A stretch of DNA of 64,000 bases from Pontibacter liquoris (GTDB lineage: Bacteria; Bacteroidota; Bacteroidia; Cytophagales; Hymenobacteraceae): positions 1,612,001 to 1,676,000 of the forward strand of contig NZ_JALEBG010000001.1 in the NCBI RefSeq assembly GCF_022758235.1, read 5' to 3'. Positions 54,511 to 62,709 of the stretch are shown one piece after another; within the stretch, counting starts at the first letter, position 1; each line of letters starts with the position of its first letter. A program made the position numbers and the translations under genes. The notes below the pieces were generated by a model that saw only the letters and a program-made list of their open reading frames with translations, searched no databases and was not told where the DNA came from.

Positions 54511-55347
54511 GTGTTTTCAGTACCTCGTTCAGTAGACCTTTGCATTCTGATCCCATGTTTTAATAACCTGCCTGGTATGATCAGATCTGTGCAGAGCATC
54601 CGGTATACGGAAGGAAAGTATGCTGTTATACTCGTAGATGACGGAAGTACCCCCCCTTTGATGTTGCCTGAGTTAAAACTGGCTTTAAGCCCAGCAGTGC
54701 CGCTGCATCTTATATCCCTTGGGGAAAATTCGGGAATAACGGGTGCCCTGAATGCTGGTTTAAGATGGATATTGCACAACCTTCAAACACGCTATATTGC
54801 CCGCTTGGATTGTGGCGATGTATGCCATGCAGATCGTTTTTTTAGACAAGTAGCCTACCTGGATGCACATCAAGATGTTGGCCTATTGGGTAGCTGGTGT
54901 ACATTTAAACAGACTTATTCATCATTTCAGTACAATTATACTACGCCAACAGAGCATAATCTGATCCAACGTGAGATGTACTTCCGGAACGTTTTTATTC
55001 ATCCTACTGTCATTTTCAGATCAACGCTATTGAACAAGGTAGGTTTATACCCGGAGGCATTTCAGTATGTGGAGGACTATGCATTGTTCTGGAAAATTTT
55101 GCAGGAGTCAAAAGGCAAGATACTGGATGAACTGCTAGTAACCTGCGAAATAAATAAAGCAGGCATCTCCATTAAAAATCGCAAGGCCCAGTTGCAGGGT
55201 AGAAAACACGTAATAAAAGCTTTTGGTGAATCTTTTTTTTTAAAATTTTTGGGAGAGGTGAAATTGATTATCTTGGGAATGATACCATATCATATGGTTA
55301 TGCATTTGAAAGAAAAATTTACTAGGACAGGAATTGCATTTATTTGA
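54511..55347 (+). CDS. Glycosyltransferase family 2 protein
   Basis: The 278-residue protein starts at GTG (54511). The GT-A signature is DLCILIPCFNNLPGMIRSV, VILVDDGSTPP, NSGITGALNAGLRWI and RLDCGDVCHADRF, with an acidic metal-binding triplet. The tail is basic, with a hydrophobic stretch (KLIILGMIPYHMVMHL). It opens the AT-rich plus-strand glycan locus. Donor and acceptor are unknown. Confidence 0.87.
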   Translation: MFSVPRSVDLCILIPCFNNLPGMIRSVQSIRYTEGKYAVILVDDGSTPPLMLPELKLALSPAVPLHLISLGENSGITGALNAGLRWILHNLQTRYIARLDCGDVCHADRFFRQVAYLDAHQDVGLLGSWCTFKQTYSSFQYNYTTPTEHNLIQREMYFRNVFIHPTVIFRSTLLNKVGLYPEAFQYVEDYALFWKILQESKGKILDELLVTCEINKAGISIKNRKAQLQGRKHVIKAFGESFFLKFLGEVKLIILGMIPYHMVMHLKEKFTRTGIAFI

Positions 55348-55522: not shown

Positions 55523-56644
55523 ATGATTATAGTACACGTTGTCGAACCCTTTGCAGCTGGCGTAGCTTTATTCGTGAAGTCCCTTACGGAAGCAATGCCA
55601 AATGAGTTACATATTGTGATTCATGGTGAAAGAAAATTAGTGATGTCGGCAAAAGAAGTAAAGAAGACGTTCCCAAAAGGAAATGTTAGGTTTATCCGTT
55701 GGAAGTCGGCACAACGCGCGCTCAATCCCTTCAAAGATTTTCTGGCCTTTACGGAATTGTACAAAGTCTTAAGGCGGCTTAAACACAGGAATTTGGTGGA
55801 TGCCGTGCATCTTCATTCTTCCAAAAGTGGGCTTCTTGGCCGCATCGCCTGCCGCCTGGCAGGAATCGACAAATATGTGTATACTCCTAATGGTGCTCCG
55901 TTTCTATCAGGTGCGAATGCCGTTCTAAACTATTTCTACCAACAACTTGAAAAGTTAGGTAATATGGTCGGAGGTGAAGTAGTATGTTGTTCTGCTTCTG
56001 AACAAGATGAATATATAAAATTAGGGATCAATGCTACCCATGTTAACAATGGCATTGCCTTACCTGATATTCAGAAGGGTGATCGTAAGTATAACAAAGA
56101 AAAGTTTATAGTTATAACCACAGGCCGCATAGAGGAACAAAAGAATCCTTTGTTATTCAACGAAATAGCGGCGTACTTCAAAGAGTTAGCTGAGTTTGAA
56201 TTTATCTGGGCTGGCGACGGTCAGGAAAAAGGCTGCCTGACAGCAACAAACATTACTGTTACCGGTTGGGTAGCGGCTGAGGAGATTAATCGCCTTGTTG
56301 CTCAGGCAGATATGTATATTTCTACTTCTGTTTTCGAAGGTCTTTCTTTTGGTGTACTGGAAGCTTTGGCTTTACGGAAGCCGGTACTCCTAAGTGATTG
56401 TGTGGGAAATAAGGATGTGGTGAAAAAAGGTGTAAACGGGGATATCTTCTCAAGTAAAAGAGAAGCTATCGTGAAGATTCTGAGCTTTGCCAATAACCGG
56501 GATATGATGGAGATAATGGGGCAACACTCACAAGCTATATGCAGCTCCAAATTTGATATGCACCGAAACTTCCAGGGGTATAAGCAAATTTACCAGACCA
56601 GGCCAATGCTAGCTCCCCAAACTGATTTAAGAACAGCAGTTTAA
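55523..56644 (+). CDS. Glycosyltransferase family 4 protein
   Basis: The 373-residue GT-B enzyme begins MIIVHVVEPFAAGVALFVKS and has VHLHSSKSGLLGRIACRLAG and YTPNGAPFLSG. Its donor lobe has ITTGRIEEQKNPLLFNEI, WAGDGQE and FEGLSFGVLEALALRKPVLLSD, with the E-x7-E donor motif. It is similar to the capsular/O-antigen branch acting on N-acetylated sugars. It lies 176 bp after the GT2 and 20 bp before the small coiled-coil protein. Confidence 0.9.
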   Translation: MIIVHVVEPFAAGVALFVKSLTEAMPNELHIVIHGERKLVMSAKEVKKTFPKGNVRFIRWKSAQRALNPFKDFLAFTELYKVLRRLKHRNLVDAVHLHSSKSGLLGRIACRLAGIDKYVYTPNGAPFLSGANAVLNYFYQQLEKLGNMVGGEVVCCSASEQDEYIKLGINATHVNNGIALPDIQKGDRKYNKEKFIVITTGRIEEQKNPLLFNEIAAYFKELAEFEFIWAGDGQEKGCLTATNITVTGWVAAEEINRLVAQADMYISTSVFEGLSFGVLEALALRKPVLLSDCVGNKDVVKKGVNGDIFSSKREAIVKILSFANNRDMMEIMGQHSQAICSSKFDMHRNFQGYKQIYQTRPMLAPQTDLRTAV

Positions 56645-57203: not shown

Positions 57204-60200
57204 TTGGAGTTTACTGGAGAACGCTTCCTTCCAATAGAAGGATTAATAGAGGATGAGATTGGAATTGAGCACTTACACCGCTATTACTCGTCACTAGATT
57301 TAGTTAATAACAAAGTAGTATTAGATTTGGCTTGTGGCGAAGGATATGGCTCGGCTTTATTAGCGACTGTAGCTAAGGAAGTGTGTGGTGTAGATATAGA
57401 TCAATCTTGTATTGATCATGCCAAGCAAAAGTACGGTTCTAAAAATAGCAATTTAACATTTCTTCAAGGAAATGTTACGCAAGTACCATTAACAACTAAT
57501 TCAGTCGATGTAGTAGTTTCATTTGAAACTATTGAACATCTTGATGGGCCAACACAGCATGCCTTTTTAAAAGAGATAAGAAGAGTATTAAAGCATGACG
57601 GAAAGTTATTAATCTCAACACCAGATAAGAACAACTACTCGCTTAGGTATTCTTATGTTAATGAATTTCATATTAAGGAGTTTACTAAGAAAGAGTTCTT
57701 TAGCTTCTTAAACCACTACTTCGATTACTCGACAGAATACTTGCAAGGATTTGAGATAGTTAGTGCTATTACAGAAACAAATACTCCAAAAACGGGAAAG
57801 TTAAAGGTTTGTAATTTGTTTCAATCTTCAAAAACCTTTTCCCGGAAGTACCTAATTGCTATTTGTAGTAATCAGCCTTTTGATCTTGAAAATAATTTTT
57901 CCTCCGTGGTCTTCGGGGTCAAGAAAGATTATCAGGAATTGAAAGATAGGATGGTGGAAATGAATGCACATATCGAAGAATTAGGTGCTTGGGGTAAGAG
58001 CTTAGATGAGGTAATTCTGCAAAAAGACGCAACAGTTACAGATTTGCAAAATAAGTTAATAAGCCAGTCACATACCATGCAAGAACTTTTAGCTCAAACT
58101 AGTGCATATAATGAACAATTGCAGAAGCAAACGGATGAATTACTTCATCATACTACAACTATTCAAAATAAAGATATTCAGGTGCAGGAGTTAAGTGAGC
58201 GCCTAACCAACAAGAATATTCAGGTGCAGGAGTTAAATGAGCGCCTAACCAACAAGAATATTCAGGTGCAGGAGTTAAATGAGCGCCTAACCAACAAGAA
58301 TATTCAGGTGCAGGAGTTAAATGAGCGCCTAACCAACAAGAATATTCAGGTGCAGGAGTTAAATGAGCGCCTAACCAACAAGAATATTCAGGTGCAGGAG
58401 TTAAATGAGCGCCTAACCAACAAGAATATTCAGGTGCAGGAGTTAAGTGAGCGCCTAACCAACAAGAATATTCAGGTGCAGGAATTAAATGAGCGCCTGG
58501 TATACAAGGATGAGGCTATATCTAATCATGAGAATAGTTGCCAAGCTGCTTCACAATTGATTAAGCAGTTGGAGCAACAGCTATACAATAAAGACAGCCA
58601 ATATAATGTGGCTGAAAGTGAAAATAAGTTGCTTCGAAGTACTATTGAAACCTTGACAGAGAATATTAATAATTTAAGTTCAGATAAGGATTCCTTAGAA
58701 AAATACATTAGTGATCTTAAAGAGAGTATAAATCACTCTTTCTCTACCACTTCTAAGTTAGAACAAGATCTAAGTGATTGTAATAACATTATTCTGGATC
58801 AGAAGCAAAGAATACATGTTCTTTACCAACAGAATGATAATTTAAACGGAAGGTTAGATGAGATCTTTACCTCAGAAGGATGGAAACTTCTAAATATTTA
58901 TTATAATATAAAAGGAAAGTGGTTACCAGAGGATACAAGTAGATACAAGTATCTGAAAAAGGCTGTTAATAAAGTCAGAGGAAAAAAGGAAAACTATTAC
59001 ACATTACAAACCTATAATCTACCTGCTGTTCAAGAAGATGTATCTCATCCTTCAGCTTCGGATTTGGAAACTTTGTTAAATACTGCTGTCGAATATGAAA
59101 TTATAAAGCTGCCATTTTTCGATCTGCCAATTGCATCTATAGTGATTCCTGCTTACAATGCCTGGGAGATGAATTATAAATGTATCAAATCAATAAATGA
59201 AAATACACATGGAGTAAGCTATGAGGTGATTATTGGTGATGATGCTTCTTCAGACGATACTCAAAACATAGGAATGTATGTTGAAAATATTGTTAGTATC
59301 CGAAATAGTAGTAATGTAGGGTTTTTGCATAACTGTAATAATGCAGCGAAGCATGCGAAAGGAAAGTATATTCTTTTTCTGAATAATGATACTGAAGTTA
59401 AACCAGGTTGGCTAAGTTCATTGGTTGAATTGTTGGAGAAAGACGCTAGCATTGGCATGGCTGGGTCTAAATTAATTTACCCTGATGGAAGATTACAGGA
59501 GGCTGGAGGCATAATCTGGAAAGATGCTTCTGGATGGAATTTTGGCCATAGGCAATCTCCAGAAGCCCCTGAGTTTAATTATGTTAAAGAAGTAGATTAT
59601 ATTTCTGGGGCAAGCATATTAATAAGAACAAGCCTCTGGAAAGAAATAGGAGGGTTTGACAGTTTATATACCCCTGCCTATTACGAAGACACTGACTTAG
59701 CTTTTGAAGTAAGAAAACGTGGGTATAAAGTTGTATATCAACCCTTATCTGAGGTTATTCATTACGAGGGCTATTCACATGGTACTGAGCAAAGAGAAGG
59801 AATCACAGGCAAAGAAATAAAAGCATACCAGCAGGTGAACTTTGGAAAGTTTTATGAAAAATGGAAAGATGTTCTGGATAAGGATCATTTTCCTAACGCT
59901 GAAAATGTGTTCTGGGCTAAAGATAGAAGTAAAGGCAAAAAAACGATCTTGTTTGTTGATCATTATGTGCCTTTCTATGATAAAGATGCTGGCTCAAGAA
60001 ACACGTTCATGTTACTGCAATTACTAGCAGAGACTGGTTACAACGTGAAGTTTATAGGGGATAATTTCTATAAGCATGAGCCATATACAACTACTCTTCA
60101 GCAAATGGGAATTGAGGTTTTATATGGAGCTTGGTACAGAGATAATTGGGAAAGCTGGGCGTTAGAAAATAAAAGTAAAATTGACTTTGTTTATTTAAGT

Positions 60201-61034
60201 AGGCCACATATTTCCATTAAATACATTGATTTTATTTGCAATAACTTAAATGCAAAGGTGATTTATTTTGGACATGATCTCCATTATTTAAGAGAGTTAA
60301 AACAGTATCAGGTTGAAGGAAGAAAAGAGCTCTTAGAATCTTCAGCAAAATGGAAAAAGTTAGAGTTAGAATTGTTCAGCAAATCGGATTTAGTCCTTAC
60401 CGTAAGTGAAGATGAAAAAACGATCATAAATAATGATCTGAATATCCAGCATGTAATTAAGCTACCCTTATTTTATTATGATAATTTCAAACCAGTAATT
60501 ACTGATTTTGCTGATAGGAAAGATATTTTATTCGTCGGTGGTTTCGGACATTCACCAAATGTAGACGGTATTATTTGGTTCTGTAAACAGGTGTGGCCAC
60601 AAATTTCAGCAAGCATTCCGGACGTTAATTTTATTATTGCTGGTTCAAATCCTCCACAAGAAATCTATGAATTGTCATCACCTCGCATTCATGTTAAAGG
60701 ATATGTGACAGATTTCGAACTCCAAGCTTTATATAACTCTGTGAGATTAGTGGTAATACCATTACGTTATGGAGCTGGGGTTAAAGGTAAAACAGTAGAA
60801 GCCATGTACAACGGCCTTCCTATTGTTACAACAAGTTTTGGAGTAGAGGGCCTATCAGGTATAGAAAACGTGATTCAGACATGTCAAAGTGAAGAAGAGT
60901 TTTCTTCTCAAGTAATTGATTATTATTCTTCAATCCAAAATTTAGAGATTAAAAGTGCAATAGAACTTGATTATGTTCAGGCGCATTTCTCTAGAGACGC
61001 AATGCTTACCGTAGTTAATGAGATCTTTAGCTAA
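57204..61034 (+). CDS. Methyltransferase / tandem-repeat coiled coil / GT2 / GT4 fusion
   Basis: I chose TTG at 57204 (M-EFTGERFLPIEG), the usual start of this methyltransferase type; an upstream TTG at 57108 would add an unlikely AT-rich stretch. The product has 1276 residues. Residues about 20-180 are a SAM methyltransferase (VVLDLACGEGYGSALLA, FETIEHLDGP). About 250-540 is a coiled coil containing eight copies of a 14-residue unit (residues 324-435). A GWKLLNIYYNIKGKW linker follows. About 643-880 is GT2 (SIVIPAYNAWEM, FLNNDTEVKPGW) and about 911-1276 is GT4 (ILFVDHYVPFYDKDAGSR, VVIPLRYGAGVKGKTVEAM). One chain thus has one methyl- and two sugar-transfer centres separated by a coil, suited to building and perhaps measuring a glycan. 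Confidence 0.9.
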   Translation: MEFTGERFLPIEGLIEDEIGIEHLHRYYSSLDLVNNKVVLDLACGEGYGSALLATVAKEVCGVDIDQSCIDHAKQKYGSKNSNLTFLQGNVTQVPLTTNSVDVVVSFETIEHLDGPTQHAFLKEIRRVLKHDGKLLISTPDKNNYSLRYSYVNEFHIKEFTKKEFFSFLNHYFDYSTEYLQGFEIVSAITETNTPKTGKLKVCNLFQSSKTFSRKYLIAICSNQPFDLENNFSSVVFGVKKDYQELKDRMVEMNAHIEELGAWGKSLDEVILQKDATVTDLQNKLISQSHTMQELLAQTSAYNEQLQKQTDELLHHTTTIQNKDIQVQELSERLTNKNIQVQELNERLTNKNIQVQELNERLTNKNIQVQELNERLTNKNIQVQELNERLTNKNIQVQELNERLTNKNIQVQELSERLTNKNIQVQELNERLVYKDEAISNHENSCQAASQLIKQLEQQLYNKDSQYNVAESENKLLRSTIETLTENINNLSSDKDSLEKYISDLKESINHSFSTTSKLEQDLSDCNNIILDQKQRIHVLYQQNDNLNGRLDEIFTSEGWKLLNIYYNIKGKWLPEDTSRYKYLKKAVNKVRGKKENYYTLQTYNLPAVQEDVSHPSASDLETLLNTAVEYEIIKLPFFDLPIASIVIPAYNAWEMNYKCIKSINENTHGVSYEVIIGDDASSDDTQNIGMYVENIVSIRNSSNVGFLHNCNNAAKHAKGKYILFLNNDTEVKPGWLSSLVELLEKDASIGMAGSKLIYPDGRLQEAGGIIWKDASGWNFGHRQSPEAPEFNYVKEVDYISGASILIRTSLWKEIGGFDSLYTPAYYEDTDLAFEVRKRGYKVVYQPLSEVIHYEGYSHGTEQREGITGKEIKAYQQVNFGKFYEKWKDVLDKDHFPNAENVFWAKDRSKGKKTILFVDHYVPFYDKDAGSRNTFMLLQLLAETGYNVKFIGDNFYKHEPYTTTLQQMGIEVLYGAWYRDNWESWALENKSKIDFVYLSRPHISIKYIDFICNNLNAKVIYFGHDLHYLRELKQYQVEGRKELLESSAKWKKLELELFSKSDLVLTVSEDEKTIINNDLNIQHVIKLPLFYYDNFKPVITDFADRKDILFVGGFGHSPNVDGIIWFCKQVWPQISASIPDVNFIIAGSNPPQEIYELSSPRIHVKGYVTDFELQALYNSVRLVVIPLRYGAGVKGKTVEAMYNGLPIVTTSFGVEGLSGIENVIQTCQSEEEFSSQVIDYYSSIQNLEIKSAIELDYVQAHFSRDAMLTVVNEIFS
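58173..58508 (+). repeat. Eight tandem 42-bp coding repeats
   Basis: Units start at 58173, 58215, 58257, 58299, 58341, 58383, 58425 and 58467. Each encodes xIQVQELxERLTNK (two heptads; the last ends LVYK). The units differ by only a few bases, including AGT or AAT for the variable residue. Such identity points to recent expansion by slippage or recombination. Confidence 0.97.
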
Positions 61035-61081: not shown

Positions 61082-61858
61082 ATGATAAGCACTAATAAGT
61101 TGAAAGGGCCGGATCCGACTGTTTCCGTCTTCTTTCATAATTATTATGGGAACGATAGTAAGTGGATTAATTTCTTTTCAAGCAACTTAACGAAACCATT
61201 TACTTTATTTTACAATTGTGTAAACAATTCTTATCACAGAGTTGCTGGCACCGGTAATGCGGTTGTAAAGCCATCGATTATTTCCGGCGATATCTCACAG
61301 AAGATTTACATCAAAGAGTCTTCTAATAAAGGAAAAGATATAGGAGGGAAATTAGTATTGATGGATGCATACCTAAAATCTAACTTTAAAAGTGATTATA
61401 TTCTTGTTATGCACGATAAGAACAGTCCTTATCATACAAATAGCATTCAGTGGAATAATGATCTACTCCGAATTGCAGAAAATAAATTGCAGGATACTAT
61501 AAAAACTTTGTTTTCTAATGATTCTCAAATTGGCATTATTGCCTCTAAAAATGCGATTAGAAATGAGTTACATAATAACCAAAAGAGTTCAAACTATACG
61601 AACTCTCCGTTAATAGAAGATTTATTAAACAGGTATAAGATAAATCCTAAGTCTTTAGAATATGTTGCCGGTACAATGTATTGGGTTAGAGCCAGCATAT
61701 ATGAGACTTTTTTTAGAGAGTTCAATCCTTTACAAATTCGTGCAAGTTTAGAAAGTGGTAATATAATGGATGAAGATAAGCCTTCTCATACACATGCCTG
61801 GGAAAGACTATTTAGTTGGATGGTAACTTCTGAAGGATACAAAATTGAAGGGATATAA
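61082..61858 (+). CDS. RgpF-like (rhamnan synthesis F family) protein
   Basis: The 258-residue protein has the signature of rhamnan synthesis protein F: VSVFFHNYYGND, ESSNKGKDIGGKLVLMDAYL, YILVMHDKNSPYH, LEYVAGTMYWVRASIYE, and a closing HAWERLFSWMV. RgpF helps assemble rhamnose-rich polymers in streptococci and is present in many other surface-glycan loci. This copy is a single domain, shorter than full-length RgpF. Its stop overlaps the next start (TAATG), so both are co-translated. Confidence 0.85.
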   Translation: MISTNKLKGPDPTVSVFFHNYYGNDSKWINFFSSNLTKPFTLFYNCVNNSYHRVAGTGNAVVKPSIISGDISQKIYIKESSNKGKDIGGKLVLMDAYLKSNFKSDYILVMHDKNSPYHTNSIQWNNDLLRIAENKLQDTIKTLFSNDSQIGIIASKNAIRNELHNNQKSSNYTNSPLIEDLLNRYKINPKSLEYVAGTMYWVRASIYETFFREFNPLQIRASLESGNIMDEDKPSHTHAWERLFSWMVTSEGYKIEGI

Positions 61859-62709
61859 TGTTCTGCAAACCATACTATTTACTTCATCATGATCAAGTTT
61901 CCGCGATAAAATCTCCTGTCGGAGATAATACTGTAATTGGGATTAAACTCAATACTAATTTAAGTGAAATACTGCACGTATTTCATATTGTGAGTAACAT
62001 CAACTATACAGATCGATTTTGTCTTTGTGTCAATTTAGCCCTGATAACTGATCAAGCGGCTATAGAAGCTATCTTATCTTTTTTCTTTTTTCAAAATTAT
62101 GATAAGCCTCTGGGCATACCTCAATTATTGGTACAGTATGAAGAGAATGCTATTTATAATGATTTCATAGAATTGTTCTCAAAGTCTGCAGCACTACAAG
62201 GCTTTAACCAAATCAATGTAGTATGTGTCAATCCGGATAAAAGCGTCTGTGCACTTCTTTCAGCTGATAAGCTGCTAGATATCAGAACTGTATATCAAAG
62301 GTGTTTAGATCAACTTCCACTTAAAGTAGATATTAACCTATATATATCTGTCTTTGGACTCAAGGACATAATAGAATTAAATATAGCATTAGAAGAAGAA
62401 GAAAGTTTATATAAACAACAAAACTTGAATGGTTATAGATTGGCTGAAGAATATAAGAAACTTGTTGATTGCGTTAATCAGTTGGAATTAATAAACAAAG
62501 CAGCAAAGCAAGAAATTGATAACCAATATACATTTAATCAGATTTTAAAATCAGGTTCTCACGCTGTTTACCTGCAAAATTACTATGATAACGAATATGA
62601 AATTTTGCCATTATGGTATAAACAACTGGGACATATTATAAAAGTGCTAACGGGGAAAAGATCCTTACGATCTTTATTCGATAACAATATTACAAAGTAC
62701 GAAAATTGA
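61858..62709 (+). CDS. Unrecognised protein of the glycan locus
   Basis: The 283-residue protein begins MFCKPYYLLHHDQVSAIK. Residues 20-190 look like alternating strands and helices (LHVFHIVSNINYTDRFCLCVNLALI; INLYISVFGLKDIIELNIALEEEE in pieces), followed by a helical, charged stretch. A conserved-looking tail has YYDNEYEILPLWYKQLGHIIKVLTGKRSLRSLF. I cannot assign a family. The tail resembles linkers that follow coiled coils in large glycosyltransferases. It is coupled by overlapping stop/start codons on both sides (61856-61860 and 62706-62709), so it probably works with its neighbours. Confidence 0.75.
   Translation: MFCKPYYLLHHDQVSAIKSPVGDNTVIGIKLNTNLSEILHVFHIVSNINYTDRFCLCVNLALITDQAAIEAILSFFFFQNYDKPLGIPQLLVQYEENAIYNDFIELFSKSAALQGFNQINVVCVNPDKSVCALLSADKLLDIRTVYQRCLDQLPLKVDINLYISVFGLKDIIELNIALEEEESLYKQQNLNGYRLAEEYKKLVDCVNQLELINKAAKQEIDNQYTFNQILKSGSHAVYLQNYYDNEYEILPLWYKQLGHIIKVLTGKRSLRSLFDNNITKYEN

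Follow-up and report, generated by a model that had tools for sequence, protein, structure and literature searches.

Introduction

Single-chain proteins that join a chain terminator to a polymerase through a coiled coil have been characterized in Klebsiella pneumoniae O12 (WbbB) and O7 (ORF6) (PMC11231755). For the Escherichia coli O9 serogroup and for K. pneumoniae O12, the length of the coil has been established as a ruler (PMC11231755). WbbB of K. pneumoniae O12 and Raoultella comprises a Kdo transferase, a coil and two glycosyltransferases (GTs) (PMC11231755, PMC9587256), and O7 ORF6 carries a methyltransferase-kinase, a domain resembling a carbohydrate-binding domain (CBM), a coil and two GT2 domains on one chain (PMC11231755). 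The transporter subunit Wzt of E. coli O9a has a domain that reads the cap, and uncapped chains stay unexported (PMC10629545, PMC3482155); in E. coli O8, termination by a methyltransferase alone is enough (PMC3482155). For WbdD, the O9a terminator, a value of roughly 20 nm has been given (PMC5082667). Coil rulers for glycan length have so far been tested in a few enterobacterial systems.

The locus described here lies in a 64,000-nucleotide stretch of the Pontibacter liquoris genome (the window), where an initial annotation had proposed a WbdD-like ruler fused to its own glycosyltransferases. The concept of a fused terminator, coil and polymerase is already known, and the O12 and O7 precedents were not mentioned in that annotation.

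Domain architecture of the fusion protein

Pfam assigns Methyltransf_11 to residues 40-137 of the fusion protein (1.1e-22), Glycos_transf_2 to residues 645-767 (3.6e-24) and Glyco_trans_1_4 to residues 1106-1240 (1.8e-21). The structure models agree, so the order first read from the DNA, namely methyltransferase, long coil, GT2 and GT4 on one protein, holds (Table 1). By sequence comparison, the TTG start of the gene matches homologues that open with M-(L)-x-F-T-G-E. The GT2-GT4 half is modeled confidently by AlphaFold2 (mean pLDDT 85.7, pTM 0.82), and in a fold comparison the GT4 domain matches TarM 7qd7 (Z 30.2, 339 residues, rmsd 2.9).

The methyltransferase keeps its SAM motif and all 33 of the 33 columns that are invariant in 20 homologues; its solved structural neighbors include 3l8d, 1ve3 and CgnL 7pd7. 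WbdD was considered as its nearest relative and rejected, since in a profile search it scores 8e-6, well behind many generic SAM methyltransferases. WbdD is also not among the 50 matches listed in the fold comparison of this domain, which is uninformative by itself. Neither Pfam nor AlphaFold2 places a kinase-sized segment between the methyltransferase (end ~225) and the coil (start ~231), and the protein thus lacks the bifunctional methyltransferase-kinase makeup of WbdD proper (O9a). The fusion enzyme is probably responsible for both synthesis and capping of a surface glycan; the GT2-GT4 pair would be the polymerase, in a locus that also encodes other GTs, and the methyltransferase would be the capping enzyme.

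Table 1. Features of the fusion gene and its locus. Positions are numbered from the first nucleotide of the window, and residues are those of the fusion protein.
Feature	Position	Strand	Remarks
GT2	54511..55347	+	first gene of locus, conserved; putative adapter GT
GT4	55523..56644	+	second gene of locus, conserved; putative adapter GT
Small coil protein, 125 aa	56665..57042	+	C-terminal end WYKRTYESRSLIGTLKQKI; in every examined relative of the locus
MT-coil-GT2-GT4 fusion gene	57204..61034	+	TTG start, 1276 aa, single ORF
Class I SAM methyltransferase (MT) domain	57204..57878	+	residues 1-225; SAM motif VVLDLACGEGYG
Coiled-coil spacer	57894..58892	+	residues ~231-563; single heptad register, proline-free over 236-555
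Eight in-frame 42-bp tandem units	58173..58508	+	14 aa (two heptads) each; 112 residues
Coil-closing segment SEGWKLL..YY.IKGKWLP...RYKYLKK	58869..59010	+	kept in relatives; proposed amphipathic membrane or assembly segment
GT2 (GT-A) domain	59121..59788	+	Pfam and model
GT4 (GT-B) domain	59919..60933	+	Pfam, model and fold comparison
RgpF-like protein	61082..61858	+	Pfam RgpF matches the G502 orthologue, not the window protein
283-aa protein	61858..62709	+	no known family; in most related loci
GT4-GT2 protein, 721 aa	62706..64000	+	extends beyond the window to 64871
Wzm	64876-65673		outside the window, after the GT4-GT2 gene
Wzt, 266 aa	65680-66480		outside the window; ATPase domain only, without Wzt_C
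O-antigen-ligase-like gene	66516-67766	-	outside the window

The tandem array and the coil

The gene holds a single array by TRF, with a period of 42, 7.7 copies and a score of 629; read in frame it gives exactly eight units. The unit translates to the 14-residue sequence NIQVQELNERLTNK. At the DNA level units 2-6 are identical, and relative to these unit 1 differs by 2 nt, unit 7 by 1 and unit 8 by 6. The eight near-identical 42-bp units of exactly two heptads described in the initial annotation are confirmed in both number and register. An assembly artefact was dropped as the main reading of the array because the outer units have differences of their own; a miscount of the identical central units is possible, the figure of eight being that of the assembly.

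A COILS scan follows one unbroken heptad register from ~231 to 563 and assigns 221 residues to the coil, whereas shuffled versions of the stretch average 57; these figures are approximate, as the scan is a re-implementation with an approximate matrix. In the same scan the repeat core reads V-L-L-K, with lysine at one of its four core positions. AlphaFold2 places helices at 243-325, 345-490 and 495-555, with breaks at 326-344 and 491-494, the first of which includes most of unit 1 and falls below pLDDT 50 over 326-340. The COILS register agrees with one continuous coil and the low-confidence gap at 326-344 does not, such that the coil itself is well supported by prediction, and a single unbroken rod is not proven. 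At the standard coiled-coil rise of 0.1485 nm per residue, one unit would measure ~2.1 nm, the array ~16.6 nm and the whole coil ~49 nm, if it forms one straight rod; the value given for WbdD is roughly 20 nm (PMC5082667).

Locus organization and the transporter

An ABC transporter, Wzm/Wzt, is present in the locus, as in the terminator-polymerase family. Its Wzt, however, lacks the C-terminal carbohydrate-binding domain that reads the cap in that family; a genome search for PF14524 (Wzt_C) gave no match at E <= 1, and Wzt is equally short in relatives with the same locus. The region 54511-66480 has a GC content of 0.366, against 0.505 for window positions 1-54000, and its middle genes vary from congener to congener, resembling a cassette set between constant export genes. 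Just downstream of the window, at L065:12883-19744 (~72883-79747 in window numbering), lies another glycan locus, which is of the Wzx/Wzy type and encodes a flippase and two Wzy_C proteins.

The outer frame (GT4, coil protein, GT4-GT2 protein, Wzm and short Wzt) is common to four other Bacteroidota (G451, G452, G502 and G742) and to three congeners (G753, G750 and G035), one genome per species being compared. In the three congeners the fusion gene is absent and other glycosyltransferases occupy its place, beside a Wzt that is 84-91% identical. A search of congeneric species found no full-length homologues, only single-domain matches. Within the closest loci the spacer between methyltransferase and GT2 measures 415 residues in the window protein, 319 in G502 and 174 in G742. 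Among these loci the array occurs only in the window protein; it is missing from G502 and G742, although both have the gene as well as the locus, and from the split proteins of G451. G451 encodes the methyltransferase-coil half and the coil-GT half as two separate proteins, which argues that a covalent spacer is not essential. In a single case, G452, the SAM motif is lost and the coil much shortened, with GT2-GT4 kept.

Several smaller genes of the locus recur with it. The tail of the 125-aa coil protein also closes the split methyltransferase-coil protein of G451, and the same motif sits on a glycosyltransferase-like protein of G035; this recurrence suggests a shared docking or membrane tail. 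The RgpF-like and 283-aa proteins (61082-62709) are found in most related loci and neither was detected in G750, and in G035 the tail of the 283-aa protein is fused onto a larger protein.

The wider family of coil-GT2-GT4 fusions

A survey of 395 genomes of the phylum found GT2-GT4 relatives mostly joined to other partners. Beyond it, 23 MT-coil-GT2-GT4 fusions were identified in Bacillota, Pseudomonadota, Myxococcota, an Acidobacteria bin and Pseudodesulfovibrio. Wzt is in view for 20 of these 23 and is CBM-sized in 19, and Pfam confirmed Wzt_C in all three of the Wzt proteins tested from fusion loci. Other distal modules found ahead of GT2-GT4 are a methyltransferase with a kinase-like domain, a kinase-like domain alone, a pyruvyltransferase, a sulfotransferase and a GT2. 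The ~280-residue domain of L101 and its relatives is called 'kinase-like' because visual inspection shows a D-x-E-W motif and because O7 sets a precedent; sequence searches of Pfam and the PDB identified no kinase in it. From sequence, an interchangeable module at the coil tip combined with a constant GT pair is consistent with a capping role. Two loci (L091:5015-7816 and L116:5182-8133) encode coil-GT2-GT4 proteins preceded by fused FrhB-type and pyruvyltransferase domains, making these proteins candidate pyruvate-capping rulers.

Across 26 fusions the spacer between methyltransferase and GT2 ranges from 174 to 762 residues (CV 0.40), against a CV of 0.02 for the methyltransferase part and 0.009 for the GT2-GT4 part. 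A spacer that is the most variable part, and an array that is lineage-specific, are what one would expect of an evolutionarily adjustable feature. Of 84 proteins, 11 have strong tandem arrays in the N-terminal extension, and none has one in its GT part. Their period is a multiple of seven codons in 9 of 11 cases (P ~1e-6, assuming all codon periods equally likely), a tally that leaves out L131 and adds the window protein. L131 was excluded because its 39-bp array is Gly/Pro-rich and not coil. A Peregrinibacteria relative (L093) carries a separate 42-bp array of 10.5 copies, and a homologue on a Pseudodesulfovibrio profundus plasmid (L061:5798-9427) has nine 54-bp (18-aa) coil units at 99% identity, which are not whole heptads. 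The seven-residue pattern of a coil may by itself favor slippage by heptad multiples, and the 9 of 11 is therefore evidence for maintenance of the register but not for selection on length. Overall, these comparisons indicate that tandem arrays in the coil arose repeatedly and independently, nearly always as whole heptads.

Models of function

The explanation we prefer, tentatively and at close to an even chance for the reading as a whole, is that the protein is a terminator-coil-polymerase fusion of an ABC-transporter-dependent glycan pathway, in which coil length shapes chain length. Its layout would be that of O7 ORF6 and O12 WbbB, except that a methyltransferase is the sole distal module. 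The GT2-GT4 half would elongate a lipid-linked glycan at the membrane, with the coil keeping the methyltransferase tens of nanometers off. Growth would end once the chain, long enough to reach the methyltransferase, is methylated at its non-reducing end. The cap would not license export in this lineage, because Wzt has no carbohydrate-binding domain, and the coil would act on chain length only via a race between extension, capping and export. Within this explanation the eight units, which amount to about a third of the coil, were added recently and without disturbing its register. The explanation starts from the observed anatomy, register, spacer variability and locus, the missing CBM, and the absence of the gene beside the sister-species transporter; from these we infer a methyltransferase that works at the end of the chain, a GT2-GT4 polymerase and, here, a glycan length set by the coil.

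In favor of a ruler are the MT-coil-GT2-GT4 order, the Wzm/Wzt pair, the CBM-sized Wzt in 19 of 20 other loci, the exchange of the distal module among cap-type enzymes, the spacer CV of 0.40, the confinement of arrays to the N-terminal part, G452, where loss of the SAM motif goes with a much shortened coil, and two precedents, namely the experimentally established single-chain rulers (PMC11231755) and methyltransferase-only termination in O8 (PMC3482155). Against it are the short, CBM-less Wzt, the congeners without the gene, the helix breaks predicted by AlphaFold2, the lysine at one in four core positions and the split halves of G451. Since Wzt is short (266 aa) here and in relatives, and the genome search gave no Wzt_C match, a ruler cannot use cap-dependent export as in O9a; together with the gene-less congeners, and with the dead methyltransferase and short coil of G452, this argues that the cap is probably not an export license here.

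A possible but less probable alternative gives the coil the role of a tether or assembly scaffold, which would oligomerize the protein and dock the coil proteins of the locus, leaving the methyltransferase to decorate chain residues or an early acceptor; length would then be weakly constrained and the repeats neutral. The other coil proteins give this good support, above all the 125-aa protein in every examined relative, whose tail recurs on the split G451 methyltransferase-coil protein and the GT-like protein of G035. Separately encoded G451 halves, a transporter that has no cap-reading domain and serves beside other enzymes in congeners, and a spacer as variable in length as a neutral linker also fit a scaffold. 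However, cap-type enzymes predominate among the distal modules of the family, most Wzt in view are CBM-sized, and heptad register is held in nearly all strong arrays, so coil formation is under constraint; the one case in which the coil shortens along with loss of the methyltransferase motif (G452) also speaks for the ruler. A dead extension on a two-domain glycosyltransferase, with the methyltransferase a structural relic, is highly improbable: G452 offers a precedent, having lost its SAM motif and retained GT2-GT4, but the window protein has the motif and every one of the invariant columns.

A stronger form of the ruler explanation would make the array a contingency locus, in which slippage or recombination changes the number of units among members of the species and thereby surface glycan length. 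Units 1-7 differ by only 0-2 nt, with five identical, the array is missing from the G502, G742 and split G451 proteins, and a whole-unit change preserves frame and register. We nevertheless regard this form as unlikely, as unit 8 has drifted by 6 nt and there is no known link between unit number and glycan length. Moreover, known phase-variable genes have short repeats, and units as long as 42 bp should gain or lose copies at a much lower rate. The heptad repeats of the coil-GT2-GT4 fusions might form an evolvable dial, in which whole-unit gain or loss resets the distance from a swappable cap to a constant polymerase, and hence surface-glycan length, here even without cap-dependent export; this generalization is doubtful.

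Comparison with known systems

The WbdD-type analogy drawn in the initial annotation is borne out by the domain order and the coil, and fails at a Wzt without a cap-reading domain and at three congeners that have the same transporter but not the gene. Like WbdD of E. coli O9a and O8, the window protein has its methyltransferase at the far end of a coil (PMC3482155, PMC5082667), but WbdD and the polymerase WbdA are separate proteins, whereas the window modules form one chain; O9a/O8 export also relies on the Wzt CBM, which the window Wzt is without. WbbB shares with the window protein the union of termination, spacer and polymerization on a single chain, with a Kdo glycosyltransferase in place of the methyltransferase as terminator. 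O7 ORF6 and the window protein both have a distal methyltransferase, a long coil, two C-terminal GT domains and an ABC-transporter locus; the window protein differs in having no kinase-sized domain, GT2-GT4 rather than GT2-GT2, a tandem array and a CBM-less Wzt. Vibrio cholerae O1 Ogawa also combines a terminal methyl group with a CBM-less ABC transporter, and methyltransferase loss leaves export running; no coil ruler is described for it there (PMC10629545). On this account, terminal methylation can go together with a CBM-less transporter (PMC10629545).

By analogy, the window protein is built, and probably works, like the WbdD, WbbB and O7 ORF6 type; we do not call it a full member because its Wzt is without a cap-reading domain. 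An export system that should need no cap, yet has a repeat-built, ruler-like coil, is a new twist on this theme. A CBM-less transporter would part the two roles of the cap, growth stop and export license, that are coupled in E. coli O9a, and a spacer family of identical two-heptad units would supply a natural length series for direct tests of the ruler model. The large family in which an interchangeable module (methyltransferase, methyltransferase with kinase-like domain, pyruvyltransferase, sulfotransferase or GT) precedes coil-GT2-GT4 is new. As far as the literature shows, this locus and its relatives further add to the published systems a coil built from repeats, the repeated independent origin of such repeats, and a CBM-less export setting.
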